64,000 bases of DNA, taken from NCBI GenBank assembly GCA_028282545.1, contig JANQHT010000018.1, positions 1-64,000 on the forward strand. Reading direction: 5' to 3'. Positions 48,739-57,457 of the stretch are shown in pieces. The notes under the pieces were generated by a model, which was given only the letters and a program-made list of their open reading frames with translations, searched no databases and was not told the DNA's origin. This DNA comes from Spirochaetales bacterium. GTDB lineage: Bacteria > Spirochaetota > Spirochaetia > DSM-27196 > Alkalispirochaetaceae. Numbering within the stretch: position 1 is the stretch's first letter; each line of letters begins with the position of its first letter. A program made the position numbers and the translations under genes.

Positions 48739-48981
48739 ATGGACGGACCGGCGGTGTTCCGAATTACGGTGGCGGAGATTCTTGGTGAGCATTGGTCGCC
48801 ATGGCTCTACGATATGGCGATCACCCACCGTGTCGGTGAAGCCGGAGAGCGTTTGACGGATCTCGAGGGAGTCGTTCGGGATCAGGCGGCGCTACGCGGG
48901 CTTCTGGATCGCATCTGGAACCTGCACCTCCGAATCGTATCGGTCGTCGAAGTCTCGAGAGGAGAGGACAGCCATGCATAA
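48739..48981 (+). CDS. Small 80-residue protein between regulator and radical SAM enzyme
   Basis: 80 residues, no signal peptide or Cys. The pattern is FRITVAEILGEHWSPWLYDM, then a Leu/Gly/Glu region, and RDQAALRGLLDRIWNLHLRI followed by VSVVEV. I recognise the DQAALxGLLxRIxxLxLxxxSV ending from many small uncharacterised proteins in other phyla but know no function. ATG 48739 is chosen on the AGGA upstream; ATG 48700 is also in frame. The radical SAM gene starts inside its last codons. It could be a substrate-binding or carrier partner of that enzyme, or a regulator; this is inference. Confidence 0.75.
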   Translation: MDGPAVFRITVAEILGEHWSPWLYDMAITHRVGEAGERLTDLEGVVRDQAALRGLLDRIWNLHLRIVSVVEVSRGEDSHA

Positions 48982-50455
48982 TAATCGGATGACCGTGCGA
49001 GATCGCCTCGTCCGGGAGTCATTGATCCGCGTGGCGGATAGGAGCCTTACCGGACGCGTGAATGACCTGAAGGGGCTCCTCTCGATAGCGCGATCTCCCG
49101 TATCGAACCCGGGATTGCGGGCTTTCCTAAAGGCGCTTAAGCGGGATATCGCCGATGAGAGCGGCCTTGCTCGCCTGTTCGCGCGGGTGGGCGCTGCCAC
49201 GAACTCCCGTTGTCGTCGTGCGCTGGTGGGGAACCTCGTATACAACTGGGGCGTCCTGGGAACGCGGATCAGGGAGTCCCTGATCCGGGACGACCGGTGG
49301 GTGCCCGCCCTGGCTGTCATCAGCCCGACCATGCGCTGCAACCTTGTGTGCACCGGGTGTTACTCCGCTCTCTATACCAAAGGAGGGGAACTTACCGACG
49401 AAGAGGTCGACCGCATATTGGCGGAGTTGCGGAGTCTCGGCTGCTACTTCGTCGTCGTCTCGGGGGGCGAGCCCTACGTGCGCAAGGAGATGTGGCTCCG
49501 ACTCTTCCGAAAGTACCGGGACATGTACTTCATGACCTATACAAACGCCACCCTCCTCGATCAAGCGACGGTCAATGAGATTGCGCGCCTCGGAAACGTC
49601 GCTCCGGCCATCAGTGTGGAAGGCTACGGGGAGGAAACCGACGCGCGGCGAGGCAAGGGCACCTATCGCCACATCGAGAACGCCATGGCGCGGCTCCGGT
49701 CGGCGGGCGTGCTCTTCGGCATCAGCGTCACCTACACGAGGCAAAACGTCGACCTCGTCACGACCGACGAGTTCGTCGAGCATTACATCGATCGCGGAGC
49801 GATCTTCGCCTGGTACTTCATGTTCATGCCCGTCGGGAAGGACCCGATACTCGACATGGTTCCCACACCGGAGCAGCGGTTCGAATGTGGAGAGCGTATT
49901 AGCGATCTGAGATCGCGCCATCCGATCTTTCTTGCGGACTTCTGGAACGACGGCCCCGCGGTCGGCGGATGTCTGGCGGGCGGGCGGAGCTATCTTCATA
50001 TTCTGAACGACGGGCGGATCGAACCCTGCGTATTCGCACACTTCGGCGTAGACAACGTGCGAAAAACCTCCATACTGGAGGCTACGAACTCGCGGTTCTT
50101 CCGAGGAATACGGGGCGAGTTTCCGTACAACGACTCGGGAAACCTCATGCGCCCCTGTATGATCGTCGACAACCCGGATGTTCTGAGAACCCTGGTGCAA
50201 CGCTACGTCGTACCGTCAGGTCACAAGCACTCGGAAGACCTGATACACGACCCCGATGTCGTGGAGTGGATCGATCGGTACGCGGAGCGGTATCGACAGA
50301 TCGTCGATACCGTGTGGGAGCGCTGTATAGAGGACCCCGACCACCGGTGGTACAGACACGGACCGGAGTATCGAGATCTGTTCAGGTTTAGAAAGTCGAA
50401 AACCGAACCACCGGTAGCCGCGAGCGCGAAAGAGGAAACGATCAGTTCAGGCTGA
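48974..50455 (+). CDS. Radical SAM enzyme with C-terminal Cys region
   Basis: 493 residues. A helical N-terminal extension of about 110 residues precedes the radical SAM core with the cluster motif CNLVCTGC (Cys 122, 126, 129), VVVSGGEPYVRKEM, and AISVEGYGEETDARRG. The C-terminal part has GGCLAGGRSYLHILNDGRIEPCVF and RPCMIVDNP, which look like a reduced SPASM-type cluster site. It should generate a 5'-deoxyadenosyl radical; the substrate is unknown. ATG 48974 has GAGAGGA upstream and overlaps the previous gene by eight bases. A repeat fragment follows 30 bases after the stop. Confidence 0.9.
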   Translation: MHNNRMTVRDRLVRESLIRVADRSLTGRVNDLKGLLSIARSPVSNPGLRAFLKALKRDIADESGLARLFARVGAATNSRCRRALVGNLVYNWGVLGTRIRESLIRDDRWVPALAVISPTMRCNLVCTGCYSALYTKGGELTDEEVDRILAELRSLGCYFVVVSGGEPYVRKEMWLRLFRKYRDMYFMTYTNATLLDQATVNEIARLGNVAPAISVEGYGEETDARRGKGTYRHIENAMARLRSAGVLFGISVTYTRQNVDLVTTDEFVEHYIDRGAIFAWYFMFMPVGKDPILDMVPTPEQRFECGERISDLRSRHPIFLADFWNDGPAVGGCLAGGRSYLHILNDGRIEPCVFAHFGVDNVRKTSILEATNSRFFRGIRGEFPYNDSGNLMRPCMIVDNPDVLRTLVQRYVVPSGHKHSEDLIHDPDVVEWIDRYAERYRQIVDTVWERCIEDPDHRWYRHGPEYRDLFRFRKSKTEPPVAASAKEETISSG

Positions 50456-50606: not shown

Positions 50607-51254
50607 ATGTGGCCCGCACTCCTCGTGGGAATCGTCGCTGCGTCGGTGTACGCGTACGAGCGCGGCAGACGGAGAAACCGTGCAATCGACGCCGCCACGG
50701 TGGCGGTGCTCGAACGGGAAATAAGCCCGACAAAGAAGCAGTACGTCGCGACGGACACCGGCGTCGCCCGTCGCTTTGAGTTCGCGTCGGAGTCGCGCTT
50801 TCCCATCGTCCGGGGGATGCTCACCCTCCTGCCGCGGTACGCGTTCCTCTATCTGCCTATCGCCCGGGCGCTGCGACGGCGCGACCTCCTTACGATCACC
50901 TTTCTGTCGGAGAGTTTGCCGGTTGGCAACGGCCACATCGTCAGCGCGCGGGCACTCTCCGACGGCTGGCACTTCGCCCGCGATATCGACGAGATGCGCC
51001 CGTACGAGACGGCCGATGGCGCCGCCGCCGCAACGGTGTTCTGTTATAATAGAACCGTTGCAGAGCGGCTGCGGAGCGTCGCGACGGAGGTGGTCGCGAT
51101 TCCCGGTTTCCGGTCGCTCTCGTGCAGCCACGATCCACGGTCGATCACGATCGCCTTCGAACCGAAGATCGCGACGATCGGTGAGTCGGTCTGGGGCGCG
51201 ATAGCGGCCGCCGATCGTTTGGCCGAGGAAGGGGAAGCATGGAGGGAACGTTGA
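50607..51254 (+). CDS. Membrane-anchored protein, paralogue of 56771-57457
   Basis: 215 residues. One N-terminal membrane helix (about 2-14) is followed by a GRRRN stretch and a cytoplasmic domain. The segment GMLTLLPRYAFLYLPIARALRRRDLLTITF is shared with the protein at 56771 (TLLPRQSWLYLPFSILVRKFDRLFLTF). No known family is recognised. It leads the cluster and overlaps the histidine kinase by 16 bases. Having one relative at each end of the cluster suggests both interact with the products in between. The leaderless promoter fixes ATG 50607. Confidence 0.72.
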   Translation: MWPALLVGIVAASVYAYERGRRRNRAIDAATVAVLEREISPTKKQYVATDTGVARRFEFASESRFPIVRGMLTLLPRYAFLYLPIARALRRRDLLTITFLSESLPVGNGHIVSARALSDGWHFARDIDEMRPYETADGAAAATVFCYNRTVAERLRSVATEVVAIPGFRSLSCSHDPRSITIAFEPKIATIGESVWGAIAAADRLAEEGEAWRER

Positions 51255-52948
51255 TACTGTCGCTCCTCAAGAGTCTTGTGAGCCAGGGGGGCATGAGCGT
51301 TATATTCGCCTTCCTCGTCACCCGTTCACGGCACCTGCGCGGAATCCTGGCAAAGGAGAGGGCGAGCGTGGCCGACACCGCCCTGATGATTCTCTTTTTT
51401 GCTTCGATCGGTATCCTCGGCACCTACACGGGAATCCCCGTCCACGGTGCGATCGCAAACGCGCGCATCGTCGGCGTCTTCGTCGGCGGGTTGCTCGGTG
51501 GACCGGTGGTCGGGATCGCCGCGGGTATTATCGCCGGGTTTCACCGGTGGGCGATCGATATAGGCGGCTTCACGGCGCTGGCGTGCGCCGTGTCCACCGC
51601 GGTAGAGGGTGCCATGGCCGCGGCCCTCCACCGCCGTTTCTCACGCGCCCGGGACAAGTGGCTCTTTGCGACGGTTACGGTCGCTATTGCGGAGGCGGTT
51701 CAGATGGCGATCATCCTGCTCATCGCGCGGCCCTTCGCGGACGCGGTGGCGCTGGTACGGATCATTGCCGTCCCGATGATCGTGGGAAACGCCTTTGGTG
51801 TCGGTATGTTCATCGCCGTCTCCGAGAGTCTCTACCGCGAGAAGGCGCGTGTCGCCGCGACGCAGGCGCAGGAAACGCTCCGGATCGCCAACCAGACGGT
51901 CGAGATATTCAGAAAGGGGCTGACCCGCGAGAACGCCGAAGCGGCCGCCCACATCATGATGGAACACCTCGACGTCACGGCCGTTTCCTTTTCGAGCACC
52001 GATATCGTCCTGGCCCACGTCGGCGAGGGGCAGGACCACCACCGGCCCGGAGAACCGCTGCGTACGCGCCTCACCCGGCAGGTGATACGAACAAAACGAC
52101 ACGCTACCGCCCAGAATCCGGAACGAATCGGGTGTAACGACCCCGACTGCCCGCTCGGTTGCGCGGTCATCGCCCCGCTATTCGACGGCGAGAGCGTCGT
52201 TGGTACGTTAAAACTCTACCGGCGGCGCGGCGAGACGCTCACGACGCTCGATACCGAGTTGGGTTTGGGTCTCGCCGGTCTCTTCTCCATCCAGCTCGAG
52301 TTAAGCCGTATCGAGGTACAGCGTCAGCTCGTTACCAGAGCGGAGTTGGATGCGCTGCAGAGCCAGATCAACCCGCACTTCCTCTTTAATGCCCTCAACA
52401 CGATCGGTTCGCTGATTCGCACCAACCCCGACCGAGCGCGGCAACTTCTCGTTCGCCTGAGCAACTTCTTCCGGCGCAACTTGGCGACCCACGATGAGGT
52501 ATCGCTCGAACAGGAGATAGACCATATCCGCGGATATCTCGAGATCGAGAAGGCGCGTTTCGGCAATCGGTTGACCGCCGTGTTTGACATCGACCCCGAG
52601 GCTCACGTGAAAATTCCCCCGCTTATTCTGCAGCCGATCGTGGAAAACGCGGTGAAACACGGGCTCCTGCCGCAGGTAGAGGGCGGGACGGTGACCGTGA
52701 CGGCGCGTACAAACGGGAAATCGGTGCAAATCAGCGTTGCCGACGACGGTGCCGGCATACCGCGCGACAAACTCAAATCGCTGCTTGAAATGGGGACGCG
52801 GACCGATTCAGTGGGCCTCCAAAACGTAGACCGCCGCCTCCGCGCGCTCTTTGGGACGGGCCTCGAAGTCGTCAGTTCGGTGGGCCGCGGCACAACGGTC
52901 ACCATGAGTGTACCCAGAGCTGAGGATCTCCTCGATTGCGTGTCATGA
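51239..52948 (+). CDS. LytS/BtsS-type sensor histidine kinase
   Basis: 569 residues: an N-terminal 5TMR-LYT membrane domain (about 1-195, including GVFVGGLLGGPVVGIAAGIIAGFHRW), a GAF-like region (about 225-350) with CNDPDCPLGCAV, and a LytS-type kinase core with the phospho-acceptor His in QINPHFLFNALNTI near 380 and ILQPIVENAVKHG, SVADDGAGIP. This architecture is that of LytS and BtsS, the latter a pyruvate sensor controlling a CstA-family transporter in E. coli. GGAAGGGGAAG precedes ATG 51239. Confidence 0.92.
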   Translation: MEGTLILSLLKSLVSQGGMSVIFAFLVTRSRHLRGILAKERASVADTALMILFFASIGILGTYTGIPVHGAIANARIVGVFVGGLLGGPVVGIAAGIIAGFHRWAIDIGGFTALACAVSTAVEGAMAAALHRRFSRARDKWLFATVTVAIAEAVQMAIILLIARPFADAVALVRIIAVPMIVGNAFGVGMFIAVSESLYREKARVAATQAQETLRIANQTVEIFRKGLTRENAEAAAHIMMEHLDVTAVSFSSTDIVLAHVGEGQDHHRPGEPLRTRLTRQVIRTKRHATAQNPERIGCNDPDCPLGCAVIAPLFDGESVVGTLKLYRRRGETLTTLDTELGLGLAGLFSIQLELSRIEVQRQLVTRAELDALQSQINPHFLFNALNTIGSLIRTNPDRARQLLVRLSNFFRRNLATHDEVSLEQEIDHIRGYLEIEKARFGNRLTAVFDIDPEAHVKIPPLILQPIVENAVKHGLLPQVEGGTVTVTARTNGKSVQISVADDGAGIPRDKLKSLLEMGTRTDSVGLQNVDRRLRALFGTGLEVVSSVGRGTTVTMSVPRAEDLLDCVS

Positions 52949-53673
52949 TCGTCGAGGACGAGCTACCCGCCGCGAGCGAACTGGAACACCTGCTCGCTCG
53001 CTGGCCGCCGATAACGGTAGCGCACGTCGTCCACCACGGGCAAGACGCCCTTCGCCTCCTCGACGAGTCGACGGTGGATGTCGTCTTCCTCGACGTCGAG
53101 ATGCCGGGGCTCTCGGGATTCGAAGTCGCCGAAGAGATACGGGTAAAGCCCTCCCCGCCGGAGATCGTGTTCGTGACCGCCTTTGACCGCTACGCGATCG
53201 ATGCATTCACCGTGCGCGCCGCGGACTACTTGCTAAAACCGATCGACCCGGCGCGTCTCGCGGAGACGATAGAGCGCCTGGTAGGCGCCGCAGATCGGGT
53301 ACCGGTGCTTCGTGCACCGCCGGAGGGAGGGGCGGCGCCGCTGCTGTCGGTCCCCGCGGGGGGGCGCTTTGTGCCGCTCTACCCGGAGAACATCGTCTTC
53401 GCCACCGCCGAACGGCGCGGGACGACGCTGGTCACCGATCAGGGCGAGTTCCACGTGGCGGAACCGTTCGGGCTCATCGTCGACCTTATGCAAAAGGACG
53501 ATCGCTTCTACCGTTCTCACCGCTCGTTCGTGGTCAATATCCATCGCGTCGTCTCGGTCCACATCTCGCGCTACGGCACGTACGATCTGTGCGTTGAGTG
53601 CACCGAACGGACCGTTCCGGTATCGCGCGGTAGCGCACCGGACTTCCGGAAGCGAATGAAAATCAGTCGCTGA
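52936..53673 (+). CDS. LytTR-family response regulator
   Basis: 245 residues. The receiver domain (MRVMIVEDELPAAS, Asp in VVFLDVEMPGLSG, Lys in YLLKPIDP) is joined to a LytTR DNA-binding domain (FYRSHRSFVVNIHRV). TTG 52936 restores the full first beta strand of the receiver and is preferred to ATG 52945, which overlaps the kinase stop. It is the partner of the LytS-type kinase and probably regulates the cstA gene that follows. Confidence 0.9.
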   Translation: MRVMIVEDELPAASELEHLLARWPPITVAHVVHHGQDALRLLDESTVDVVFLDVEMPGLSGFEVAEEIRVKPSPPEIVFVTAFDRYAIDAFTVRAADYLLKPIDPARLAETIERLVGAADRVPVLRAPPEGGAAPLLSVPAGGRFVPLYPENIVFATAERRGTTLVTDQGEFHVAEPFGLIVDLMQKDDRFYRSHRSFVVNIHRVVSVHISRYGTYDLCVECTERTVPVSRGSAPDFRKRMKISR

Positions 53674-53715
53674 GTGCAATTCGTGCGCCAATTCGAGCAT
53701 CCCGCGACTTCCGGC

Positions 53716-53743
53716 TTGCGCGGCTCACCGGCCGTGCTACGAT
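53716..53743 (+). promoter_or_regulatory. Candidate cstA promoter
   Basis: TTGCGC (53716-53721), a 16-base spacer and TACGAT (53738-53743). A leader of about 65 bases with GAGGAGG follows. It is the only ordinary led promoter in the cluster, giving room for LytTR sites, but I cannot identify the binding repeats. Confidence 0.45.
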
Positions 53744-53815
53744 TAGCCATCCACGAACGCCCTTTTCTCGCCAAAGGAATTTCGCGGAAAACCAATTCTC
53801 TGTGAGGAGGCTCAC

Positions 53816-55543
53816 ATGACCACGATTGTTGTCATTGTCGGCGTCGCAGTCTACATCGCTCTCTACTTCTTTTACGGTAAGAAGCTGGAGACCGACGTAG
53901 TCAAGGCTGACGACGGCCTCGAGACGCCTGCCAATCGGCTCTATGACGGCGTGGACTACATCCCCGCCAAGGCGCCGGTTCTCTTCGGCCACCATTTCGC
54001 GTCGGTTGCGGGCGCGGCGCCGATCATCGGACCGGTCATCGCCATGGCGTGGGGCTGGGTACCTGCGCTGGCGTGGATTTGGTTCGGCAATATCTTTATC
54101 GGCGCCGTCCACGACTATCTGGCGATCATGGCCAGCGTCCGGTACGACGGGAAGTCGATCCAGTTCGTTGCGTCCGACCTGATAACAAACCGGACGGGGA
54201 AACTCTTCTACTGGCTCGTCTTCCTGATTCTGATTCTGATCGTCGGCGCATTCGGCGCGGTCCTCGGCAGGATGTTTGTCGGCGACCCGGCGGTCCCGTC
54301 AAGCTACATCTTGACGCTGGTAGCCGCACTGATCCTGGGCGTCCTGCTCTATCGCGTCAAGATGAACTTCACGCTCGCAACGATCATCGGTATCGTCATG
54401 CTCGGGCTCGCCGTCTGGGGCGGAACCGTGATGCCGTTCGTGGCGCCGAAAGGCGTCTGGTTTGTCGTCATGTTCTTCTACATCATCATCGCGGCGGCGA
54501 TACCGGTAAACGTACTGCTCCAGCCGCGGGACTACCTCAACAGCTGGCTGCTCTACCTCGGACTCGCGATCGGTGCGATTGCGGCGATCTTCAGCGGTGC
54601 CGAGTTTTCCGCCCCCGCCTTCACGAGCTTTTCACCGATCGTCTCAGGCGGCAAGCCGAGCCCCTTCTGGCCGGTCATCCCGTTGATCGTCGCCTGCGGT
54701 AGCTTGAGCGGATTCCACGCGCTCGTCGGTTCCGGAACGACCAGCAAGCAGCTCGACAAGGAGAGTTCCGGTCTCAAGATCGGCTACGGCGGAATGCTCT
54801 TCGAAGGGTTCCTTTCCACGATCGTCGTCATCGCCGTTGCGGGCTACGGAATGCAACTGCTCGTGAACGCCGGACAGTCGATTGACGCCTCCTCCTGGGG
54901 GTACGGGTACATCGCCCCTTCGGGCGCGGCCGGCATCGGCGGAGCGGGCATGTTCACCGCGGCGTACGCTGAAATGGTTGCCGACACGTGGCTCGGCTTC
55001 CTGCCGACCACGATCGTCAAGACGATCGCCGGTATGTGGGTCGCATCCTTTGCGATGACGACGCTGGACACGACCAACCGCCTGGCGCGCTACACCGTGT
55101 CCGAGATCGCACTCCCGCTCAAGGAGAAGAACGCCGGGGCGTATAACTTCCTCACCAACCGGTGGGTCGCCTCCGTTATTCCGGCTGCGATCGGTATCTA
55201 CCTCGCGTGGAGCGGTACGTTCAGCATCCTGTGGCCGGCCTTCGGCGCCGGTAACCAGTTGATCGCGTCGATCGCGTTGCTCACCGGCACCGCCTGGGTA
55301 ACGAAGCGTCTGAAGTCAAAGGCGAGCATGGCGCTTATACCGGCGTACCTGCTCTGGATAACGGTGACCGCGGCGATCCTCTGGCACATGTTCGTCGTCG
55401 TGCTGCCGGCCATTAGCAGCAACCCGCTGACCAACACGGTAGTGTTTATCGTCGAAGCGGTCATGCTCATCCTGAACATCGTCTTTATCATCGATTTCCT
55501 GCGTACGCGCAACGAGCCGGTTTCCGAACCGAGCCAGGCGTAG
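53816..55543 (+). CDS. CstA-family transporter (carbon starvation, peptide/pyruvate type)
   Basis: 575 residues with about 15 membrane helices. Family landmarks are YDGVDYIPAKAPVLFGHHFASVAGAAPIIGP, WGWVPALAWIWFGNIFIGAVHDYL, GFHALVGSGTTSKQL and TTLDTTNRLARY. It is shorter than E. coli CstA (about 700) and lacks its long C-terminus. E. coli CstA and BtsT take up peptides and/or pyruvate. GAGGAGG stands before ATG 53816. Regulation by the LytS/LytTR pair just upstream is like BtsSR-BtsT. The small protein and ArsA-type ATPase that follow are unusual companions. Confidence 0.92.
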   Translation: MTTIVVIVGVAVYIALYFFYGKKLETDVVKADDGLETPANRLYDGVDYIPAKAPVLFGHHFASVAGAAPIIGPVIAMAWGWVPALAWIWFGNIFIGAVHDYLAIMASVRYDGKSIQFVASDLITNRTGKLFYWLVFLILILIVGAFGAVLGRMFVGDPAVPSSYILTLVAALILGVLLYRVKMNFTLATIIGIVMLGLAVWGGTVMPFVAPKGVWFVVMFFYIIIAAAIPVNVLLQPRDYLNSWLLYLGLAIGAIAAIFSGAEFSAPAFTSFSPIVSGGKPSPFWPVIPLIVACGSLSGFHALVGSGTTSKQLDKESSGLKIGYGGMLFEGFLSTIVVIAVAGYGMQLLVNAGQSIDASSWGYGYIAPSGAAGIGGAGMFTAAYAEMVADTWLGFLPTTIVKTIAGMWVASFAMTTLDTTNRLARYTVSEIALPLKEKNAGAYNFLTNRWVASVIPAAIGIYLAWSGTFSILWPAFGAGNQLIASIALLTGTAWVTKRLKSKASMALIPAYLLWITVTAAILWHMFVVVLPAISSNPLTNTVVFIVEAVMLILNIVFIIDFLRTRNEPVSEPSQA

Positions 55544-55552
55544 CACGAACCG

Positions 55553-55849
55553 ATGCCGGGGAAGCTGATGAAGCGCGCATGGGGAGCCGTGCGCGGCTTC
55601 CTCGGCGCGATGGACCAGGCGCACCGCGAGAAGGTCGTCGCGCTCACAAACTACGAGGCGCGGGAACTCGAGAATATGTTCGTCGTGTTGCTGCTCGGTT
55701 CATTTACGGGACTACCCTCTCCACCGTCGTTTCTGGCGGTGGAGCTTCTACCCTACCTGGAACACGAGGTCAAGGTTCTCAACCGGCGCGCACAGGATAC
55801 CACCGACTCGCTCGCCGAGATCATGGGTGTACTGGACGCGGACGGATGA
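55553..55849 (+). CDS. Uncharacterised 98-residue protein following cstA
   Basis: 98 residues. A basic amphipathic N-terminus is followed by KVVALTNYEARELENMFVVLLL, one or two hydrophobic segments (about 42-66, FVVLLLGSFTGLPSPPSFLAV) and an acidic helix (VKVLNRRAQDTTDSLAEIM). It does not match YbdD/YjiX, the small partner encoded next to E. coli cstA. ATG follows the cstA stop by nine bases, and its TGA overlaps the ArsA-family start, so the three genes are tightly coupled. A membrane adaptor linking the ATPase to the transporter is a plausible role; this is inference. Confidence 0.7.
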   Translation: MPGKLMKRAWGAVRGFLGAMDQAHREKVVALTNYEARELENMFVVLLLGSFTGLPSPPSFLAVELLPYLEHEVKVLNRRAQDTTDSLAEIMGVLDADG

Positions 55850-56766
55850 GAACGATCTTCTTTACCGGCAAGGGCGGTGTCGGTAAGTCGACGATATCCG
55901 CCGCCACCGCATTTCAACTTTCGGAAAAGGGGTACACCGTCCTGGCCGTATCGTTTGACCCGGCGCACAATCTGGGTGACATATTCGGCGTACGCCTCGG
56001 GCACCGAACGAAGAAGTTCAGCTCGACGCTCCATCTTCAGGAGGCCGACCTCGAAAAGGCGGCCGCCGAGTACATCAAAACCAACACCGATATCCTCACC
56101 GAGGTGTACAGTTACACCAAAGCGTTTAACCTCGACATGTACTTCAAGGTGCTGCGCTACGCTCCCGGCGTCGAGGAGTACGCGGCGTTGACCGCACTCG
56201 AGAGCGTGCTGAAGAACGAGCACGCGTACGATTACATCGTGATCGATACTCCCCCGACGGCGCTCACCCTGAGGATACTCGCGCTGCCGCGTATTACGAT
56301 CACCTGGATCGACCGTTTACGGCGAATCAGACGCGACATTCTCGACAAGCGGCACACCGTCCACAACATCACCGGAGCGTACGTCGAAGACGGCGTCAAA
56401 CTGGCGTACAACGCGAACGAGGACCCCGTCATGAGCAAGCTCCGCGAGCTCTTCGATCGCTACGTGAGCGTGGCCAAGTACCTGGAGAGTACAAACAACA
56501 AGATCGTCGTCGTGTTGAACCCCGACTACCTCAGCCTGCGCGAGAGCGAGCGCATTTTCAAAGGGCTCACCGACCTCAACCTGCCGCTCACCGCCACGCT
56601 CACCAACAAGTACACCGACGAGAAAGCCGGTGTGGCGGACGAGATGGAGGCGGAATTGTTCAAGCTACGGGACGACGACGTCAGCCACGCACGCGTGAAG
56701 TTGCAGCCGTACACCCGTGACGATTCGTATATGATCGACTACGACCTCGCAGGTCTGCTACTCTGA
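55846..56766 (+). CDS. ArsA/Get3-family ATPase
   Basis: 306 residues. The deviant Walker A is GKGGVGKST at 8-16, with switch I-like SFDPAHNLGDIFG and IDTPPTALTLRIL. The mid-region helices are in the position of the Get3 client-binding region but differ in sequence. Family members move arsenite (ArsA) or tail-anchored proteins (Get3); no ars gene is nearby, so arsenite is unlikely. It is a single-domain form. Sitting between the 98-residue membrane protein and the paralogue of the first cluster gene, it may act on the CstA transporter or its partners. Confidence 0.9.
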   Translation: MRTIFFTGKGGVGKSTISAATAFQLSEKGYTVLAVSFDPAHNLGDIFGVRLGHRTKKFSSTLHLQEADLEKAAAEYIKTNTDILTEVYSYTKAFNLDMYFKVLRYAPGVEEYAALTALESVLKNEHAYDYIVIDTPPTALTLRILALPRITITWIDRLRRIRRDILDKRHTVHNITGAYVEDGVKLAYNANEDPVMSKLRELFDRYVSVAKYLESTNNKIVVVLNPDYLSLRESERIFKGLTDLNLPLTATLTNKYTDEKAGVADEMEAELFKLRDDDVSHARVKLQPYTRDDSYMIDYDLAGLLL

Positions 56767-56770
56767 CGCC

Positions 56771-57457
56771 GTGTTTGCATACTCACACGTAACGTCCCAA
56801 CCCGCCTTTTATCTCCTGATCGCGGTAACGGTCATCCTGACGCTCGGTTTCTCGTGGGGACGGCGCCGCAACCTGCGCATCCTCCACGGCACCCTCGACG
56901 CGATCTCCGCAGTGCTCAAGCCGCGCGACCAACGGTACACCAACATCGGCGGCCAGACGGGCTACCACGCCAACTTCGTCCCGGGCGCGTTCAAGTCCGT
57001 TCGCCGTGTCGACGCGACGATGACGCTGTTGCCGCGCCAGAGTTGGCTCTACCTGCCCTTCTCCATTCTCGTTCGAAAGTTCGATCGCCTCTTCCTCACC
57101 TTCGTCGTGAACAAGCGGGCGCGCGGGAGCTTTTCGGAGGGGCACTTGATCGAACAACGCTTTGAAAGGTTGCGCGGTAACGCAATTGCCAACGCGGCGA
57201 CTCTCGCATCGGAGGAGATCCAGTGGGGCCCGATGACCTTCCGCCTCTACTACGAAGACGATGAGGCGCGATTAGCGCTGCTTGACCTCAAGTCGCGCCT
57301 CGGCGAACCGGACACGGTCCGACACGCGGCGCTGGTACCGGCGCAAGATGCGCTCTACCTCTTCCAGATCCCACGGCCCGAGAGCGCGAGACGCGTGGTG
57401 GCGACGTTCCGCGACTGGTTCGACGAGTTTGTGAGCGGGAAAGAGGCGGCGGAATAA
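56771..57457 (+). CDS. Membrane-anchored protein, paralogue of 50607-51254
   Basis: 228 residues from GTG 56771. An N-terminal membrane helix (about 11-27) is followed by GRRRN and a cytoplasmic domain, with TLLPRQSWLYLPFSILVRKFDRLFLTF as in its relative at 50607. It is slightly longer and has a C-terminal DWFDEFVSGKE. No known family. It ends the cluster and converges with the aldehyde dehydrogenase gene, whose stop begins at the next base. Confidence 0.72.
   Translation: MFAYSHVTSQPAFYLLIAVTVILTLGFSWGRRRNLRILHGTLDAISAVLKPRDQRYTNIGGQTGYHANFVPGAFKSVRRVDATMTLLPRQSWLYLPFSILVRKFDRLFLTFVVNKRARGSFSEGHLIEQRFERLRGNAIANAATLASEEIQWGPMTFRLYYEDDEARLALLDLKSRLGEPDTVRHAALVPAQDALYLFQIPRPESARRVVATFRDWFDEFVSGKEAAE

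Follow-up and report, generated by a model that had tools for sequence, protein, structure and literature searches.

The window analysed here comprises 64,000 nucleotides (nt) of contig JANQHT010000018.1 (assembly GCA_028282545.1), one contig of the incomplete 4.3-Mb genome of a Spirochaetales bacterium. At positions 50607-57457 it carries, as the first-pass annotation had described, seven genes in one direction (+ strand), in the order YpA–LytS–LytTR–CstA–CstX–ATPase–YpB. The trio formed by the CstA-family carrier, the small protein CstX and a Get3/ArsA-type ATPase shows invariant linkage in bacteria and archaea alike. The first and last genes are paralogous, as had also been noted, and form one family, CstY; the modelled structure of YpB has a fold like that of CCDC47. 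CCDC47 is a subunit of the multipass translocon (PAT complex) of the endoplasmic reticulum (ER), which in human cells assembles multi-pass membrane proteins. We suggest, tentatively, that CstX, the ATPase and CstY constitute an ATP-driven helper module for the assembly or stabilisation of CstA.

Relatives were searched by one component alone, and the neighbouring genes were inspected afterwards. The NCBIfam small-protein model found the small protein in 45 of 148 related genomes, the relatives in the named collection being Spirochaetota metagenome assemblies. In these relatives 44 loci had longer flanks; the gene immediately upstream of that for the small protein encodes CstA in each of the 43 assessable cases, and the one immediately downstream encodes the ATPase in 44 of 44. 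In addition, about 85,000 species genomes were scanned with a narrow CstX alignment, which gave 79 named loci from Spirochaetota, Thermococci, Archaeoglobi, Bacteroidota, Dehalococcoidia, candidate division KSB3 and one deltaproteobacterium; this set shares some genomes with the 44 loci, and the two are not independent. CstA is directly upstream of the CstX gene in 75 of the 75 assessable loci and the ATPase downstream in 78 of 78. Because the order of the trio recurs in every assessable relative, the cluster is not due to chance, and the small protein and the ATPase, which the first-pass annotation had tied to the transporter, are indeed kept beside cstA. A tblastn search of plasmids with CstX gave no match, and apparent CstX-CstA and CstX-ATPase fusions were rejected as artefacts of stop-to-stop reading frames. 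Two loci carry a second, divergent copy of the ATPase gene just upstream of cstA (L077:6488-7465 and L079:4227-5153). Three Thermococcus-type operons (L185, L189, L191) have two tandem CstX copies, as was noted for T. kodakarensis in 2010 (PMC2963123).

CstY follows the ATPase directly in 67 of the 79 named loci, including every Thermococcus operon with downstream sequence available, in which it occupies the place of the published CstY and is 217-220 amino acids (aa) long. The 148 relatives hold 50 CstY-family matches in 34 genomes, placed either within a CstA cluster or at the end of a contig, with none shown to lie anywhere else. YpA (50607-51254) is a divergent paralogue of YpB with an N-terminal membrane anchor and a cytosolic domain (profile A6, 3.2e-26, whole-genome search), and relatives carry its gene next to cstA or following YpB. 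In two genomes (L069/L122 and L070/L121) a second cstA and then a YpA-type gene apparently come directly after YpB, the pieces being joined by matching contig ends only.

The AlphaFold2 model of YpB (56771-57457), with a mean predicted local distance difference test (pLDDT) score of 92.4, consists of one transmembrane helix and a cytosolic domain, and ends in one helix (residues 203-227). Compared with 350,542 PDB chains by Foldseek, it matched the three CCDC47 structures first, namely 7tm3_4 (E 1.7e-8, probability 1.00), 9i78_4 (E 7.4e-7, probability 1.00) and 6w6l_7 (E 0.012, probability 0.99), and the next, non-CCDC47 match had E 0.079 and probability 0.30. The TM-score of the fold match is 0.64 on the query. 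The Pfam CCDC47 model (PF07946) is weakly matched by 13 of 31 CstY-family members (best E 4.3e-4). A run of this model over the 148 spirochaete genomes gave 13 matches, 11 of which hit the YpB gene, and in 20 further genomes three of five fall on a CstY gene, one contig among them being assigned by its length and position; two of the three belong to Thermococcus and cover a different part of the model. Like CCDC47, YpB has one membrane helix, a G-x-x-x-N motif right after it and then a cytosolic globular domain; unlike CCDC47, it has no lumenal domain. The predicted fold of the product of the seventh gene, which the first-pass annotation had treated only as a paralogue of the first, lends indirect support to the idea of an assembly or regulation device.

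The ATPase (55846-56766) is a single-domain protein of 306 aa without any cysteine. It scores 168.3 bits against TIGR00345 (GET3/ArsA/TRC40 subfamily; cut-off 135), has a PF02374 match at 6.1e-51, and shows the signature-lysine P-loop of that subfamily, with GKGGVGK invariant. An alignment of twelve relatives (A5) shows practically no variation in the P-loop GKGGVGK-T, switch I DPAHN--D or switch II DTPPT; the GKGGVGKS P-loop, DPAHN switch I and DTPPT switch II are shared alike with Get3/TRC40, a membrane-protein targeting factor, and with ArsA. In contrast to ArsA, it has one ATPase domain rather than two and lacks the metalloid-binding cysteines, and its score against the arsenical pump model TIGR04291 (103.9 bits) is below the cut-off of 650. 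With no cysteine present, neither the metalloid thiols of ArsA nor the zinc clasp of Get3 can be used. A role in arsenic resistance was rejected on this ground and on the absence of ars genes from the cluster, in agreement with the earlier statement that these are not arsenic genes.

CstX (55553-55849; 98 aa) lies in the same place, between CstA and the ATPase, as cory-CC-star proteins (NCBIfam NF041419). Its match to that model is weak but significant (26.8 bits, E 3.7e-6, below the cut-off of 80), suggesting a distant relationship; it ends in ADG and not in Cys-Cys, a criterion that we take from the name of the family. Two spirochaete genomes (L086, L087) have proteins that do end in Cys-Cys and are true cory-CC-star members, likewise encoded between CstA and an ATPase of the ArsA family. 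The AlphaFold model of CstX (pLDDT 83) comprises two long helices, 2-52 and 59-96, with a GLPSPPS turn between them, and a fold search with it gave no significant PDB match. The most hydrophobic 19-residue window of CstX scores 1.43. The protein had been taken for a membrane protein, which is not clearly so; on the model, helical hairpin is the more fitting description. The possibility that CstX is a form of YbdD was rejected, since the YbdD family PF04328 is absent from the 148 relatives and CstX has no match to any Pfam family.

The core of this association is not new. Castillo and Saier described in 2010 26 cases of cstA with a one-domain arsA homologue of about 300-330 aa, without ars genes, 24 of them with CstX of about 90 aa, and in five archaea (Thermococcales) a single-transmembrane-segment (TMS) protein of about 210 aa, CstY, to which no fold was assigned; the trees of CstA, CstX and ArsA matched, and ArsA was proposed to energise CstA through CstX (PMC2963123). 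Both the CstA-CstX-ArsA(-CstY) operon and the idea of an ATP-driven transporter were thus already published, as was a link between ATPase and transporter. The window likewise combines a CstA homologue, a CstX-sized gene and a single-domain ArsA homologue, and YpB, with 228 aa and one hydrophobic segment, is comparable to the protein of about 210 aa with one TMS, the YpB family being equated with published CstY by size, place and taxon and not by accession. The differences are that CstY is found here in Spirochaetota, Chloroflexota and others, that it is duplicated in the window, and that its predicted fold resembles CCDC47. What is new is that the flanking paralogues YpA and YpB are the CstY family, which occurs widely in both bacteria and archaea. 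The CCDC47-like identity of CstY, too, is a new point that was not found in the literature searched, where papers of 2022 and 2026 describe prokaryotes as lacking PAT components (PMC9630114, PMC13261788).

There is also a second CstX lineage without CstY, most members of which carry an unrelated protein of about 155 aa between cstA and cstX (L080, L081, L083, L085, L090, L096, L099, L102, L104, L105, L124, L125, L126, L166, L169-L171, L179, L180 and L184). This protein has about four hydrophobic segments and no good Pfam match. An Asterix-like partner was looked for by Pfam in CstX and in this four-segment protein, and neither gave a match, which is a weak test only. CstY and the protein of about 155 aa never occur together in 123 loci. 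In the CstA tree, all CstY-linked carriers, archaeal and bacterial and including the window CstA, form one clade with full support in the Shimodaira-Hasegawa-like approximate likelihood ratio test (SH-aLRT), those with the 155-aa gene fall in other places, and the CstA proteins that lack CstX are separate again; the tree was made by a quick method and has some long branches. This grouping implies that the occurrence of the helper genes tracks the subfamily of the carrier and not the host.

The proposal of an assembly module draws on the invariant linkage, the single clade of CstY-linked carriers, the CCDC47 fold match and the kinship of the ATPase with Get3. By analogy with BtsSR-BtsT, LytS would bind external pyruvate and, through LytTR, switch on cstA and the genes behind it. 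The CstX hairpin would bring the ATPase, probably a nucleotide-switched dimer, to the membrane, and the membrane-anchored CstY could hold or shield carrier helices with its CCDC47-like cytosolic domain during folding, until ATP hydrolysis releases the finished carrier. The analysis itself shows the identity of the genes, their invariant order, the conserved pyruvate-site residues and the predicted fold of YpB, whereas we infer that a complex forms, that it acts as a chaperone, what ATP does in it and that the cargo is pyruvate.

ArsA is thought to energise ArsB. A corresponding role here, in which the ATPase drives transport directly and CstX couples ATP hydrolysis to CstA, is the published proposal backed by the co-evolving CstA, CstX and ArsA trees (PMC2963123), and the inseparability of the trio speaks for it as well. 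However, E. coli CstA (PMC5847655) and BtsT are carriers without need of an ATPase, both CstX and the ATPase are missing from further CstA clades of this class, and a CCDC47-like subunit is left unexplained, so we regard direct energisation as unlikely. Alternatively, the ATPase and CstX could sense energy or a ligand and, bound to mature CstA, gate its activity, in the manner of other cytosolic switch proteins acting on membrane partners. Deviant Walker-A ATPases such as ParA, MinD and their kin, whose models are matched by the window ATPase, generally act as nucleotide switches. Moreover, E. coli CstA needs a small partner, YbdD (65 aa), as its only partner (PMC5847655); PF04328 was found in none of the 148 relatives, though 68 of them carry CstA, and CstX may take its place. 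A gate of this kind does not predict a CCDC47-like subunit either, and we regard it as unlikely too.

Several points weigh against the assembly module and against the CCDC47 relationship that it draws on. E. coli CstA works with YbdD alone, and CstY, being absent from the second CstX lineage, is not universally needed. The ATPase differs from Get3 in having no CXXC zinc site at the dimer interface. YpB itself scores only 10.9 bits with PF07946, below the gathering score of 27.7, and no match in any genome passes this cut-off; it also lacks the C-terminal coiled coil by which CCDC47 latches Sec61. The reverse sequence tests fail: hhalign against the human CCDC47 sequence alone gave a probability of 1.5%, human CCDC47 ranked 62nd against 5000 shuffles, neither being significant, and the CstY profile A1 found no CCDC47 among the PDB sequences. 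These failures would be expected if the fold match were convergence on a common alpha/beta fold, uninformative on membrane-protein biogenesis. Convergence nevertheless seems quite improbable, as all three CCDC47 chains rank first with nothing else near, the Pfam CCDC47 matches concentrate on the CstY gene, and the G-x-x-x-N motif after the membrane helix is shared. Since no match passes the Pfam cut-off, the tests with the human sequence fail and the coiled coil is absent, the YpB model is called CCDC47-like and not a member of PF07946.

The remaining genes of the cluster point to regulation by pyruvate. LytS (51239-52948; Pfam 5TMR-LYT, GAF, His_kinase and HATPase) is a histidine kinase and probable pyruvate sensor, 36% identical to E. 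coli BtsS, whose R72, R99, C110 and S113, as well as the phospho-acceptor H382, are all kept in it. The gene for the response regulator (52936-53673; Pfam Response_reg and LytTR) follows, and then that for the carrier (53816-55543; PF02554 at 2.2e-124), probably a pyruvate carrier. The arrangement resembles BtsSR-BtsT of E. coli, where BtsT is a proton symporter, in combining a LytS kinase with all four pyruvate-binding residues, a LytTR regulator and a CstA-family carrier, and the analogy drawn by the first-pass annotation is confirmed at residue level. It differs in that carrier and regulator fall far below the equivalog cut-offs (CstA, 188.4 against 1188; BtsR, the best named model for the regulator, 134.7 bits against 246), and in having CstX plus the ATPase in place of a YbdD-type partner. 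The four residues are those that bind pyruvate in BtsS (PMC10653868), and in Desulfovibrio vulgaris a cstA and its adjoining two-component system gave pyruvate-specific mutant phenotypes (PMC10102598). The kept residues and these phenotypes make pyruvate the likeliest candidate for both signal and cargo.

LytS/LytTR, earlier counted as a member of the cluster, proves to be a local regulator outside the conserved core, because only 6 of the 44 relatives' loci have LytS on the strand of the trio. The low count would also fit the view that LytS/LytTR, YpA and the rest came to lie here by chance, with CstA, CstX, the ATPase and YpB alone being a unit. That view is very unlikely given that the LytS-LytTR-CstA order recurs in several spirochaete families, that the repeats of the spacer recur, and that the kinase has a BtsS-type pyruvate site. 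These repeats, seen by eye in nine loci, are TTTCAT-like direct repeats about 21 bp apart in the lytTR-cstA spacer and form a candidate LytTR operator; they are clearest in L100 and L078, are also present in L103, L104, L119 and L125-L127, and are weak in the window, where imperfect direct repeats 21 bp apart lie upstream of cstA at 53676-53705. The spacer is the sole sizeable gap in the cluster (142 nt). The claim that most genes overlap holds for three of the six junctions (16, 13 and 4 nt); two others are tiny gaps of 9 and 4 nt, and the last is the spacer. Just upstream of the cluster, at 48974-50455, lies a gene for a radical SAM/SPASM protein (PF04055, 9e-20; all NCBIfam matches below cut-off).

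It is conceivable, and we hold it with some doubt, that CstY is a prokaryotic relative of CCDC47 and that CstX, the ATPase and CstY are an ancient ATP-driven intramembrane chaperone for one carrier family, a counterpart of the PAT complex and perhaps the source of part of it. If homology and function hold, there would be a prokaryotic counterpart to a part of the PAT complex, which current reviews deny bacteria. A CCDC47-fold protein in one operon with a Get3-type ATPase and a single carrier would offer a simple genetic system, for example in Thermococcus kodakarensis, in which the function of CCDC47-like domains could be asked. An ArsA-family ATPase would gain a definite role as well, its association with CstA having stood without explanation since it was reported in 2010.

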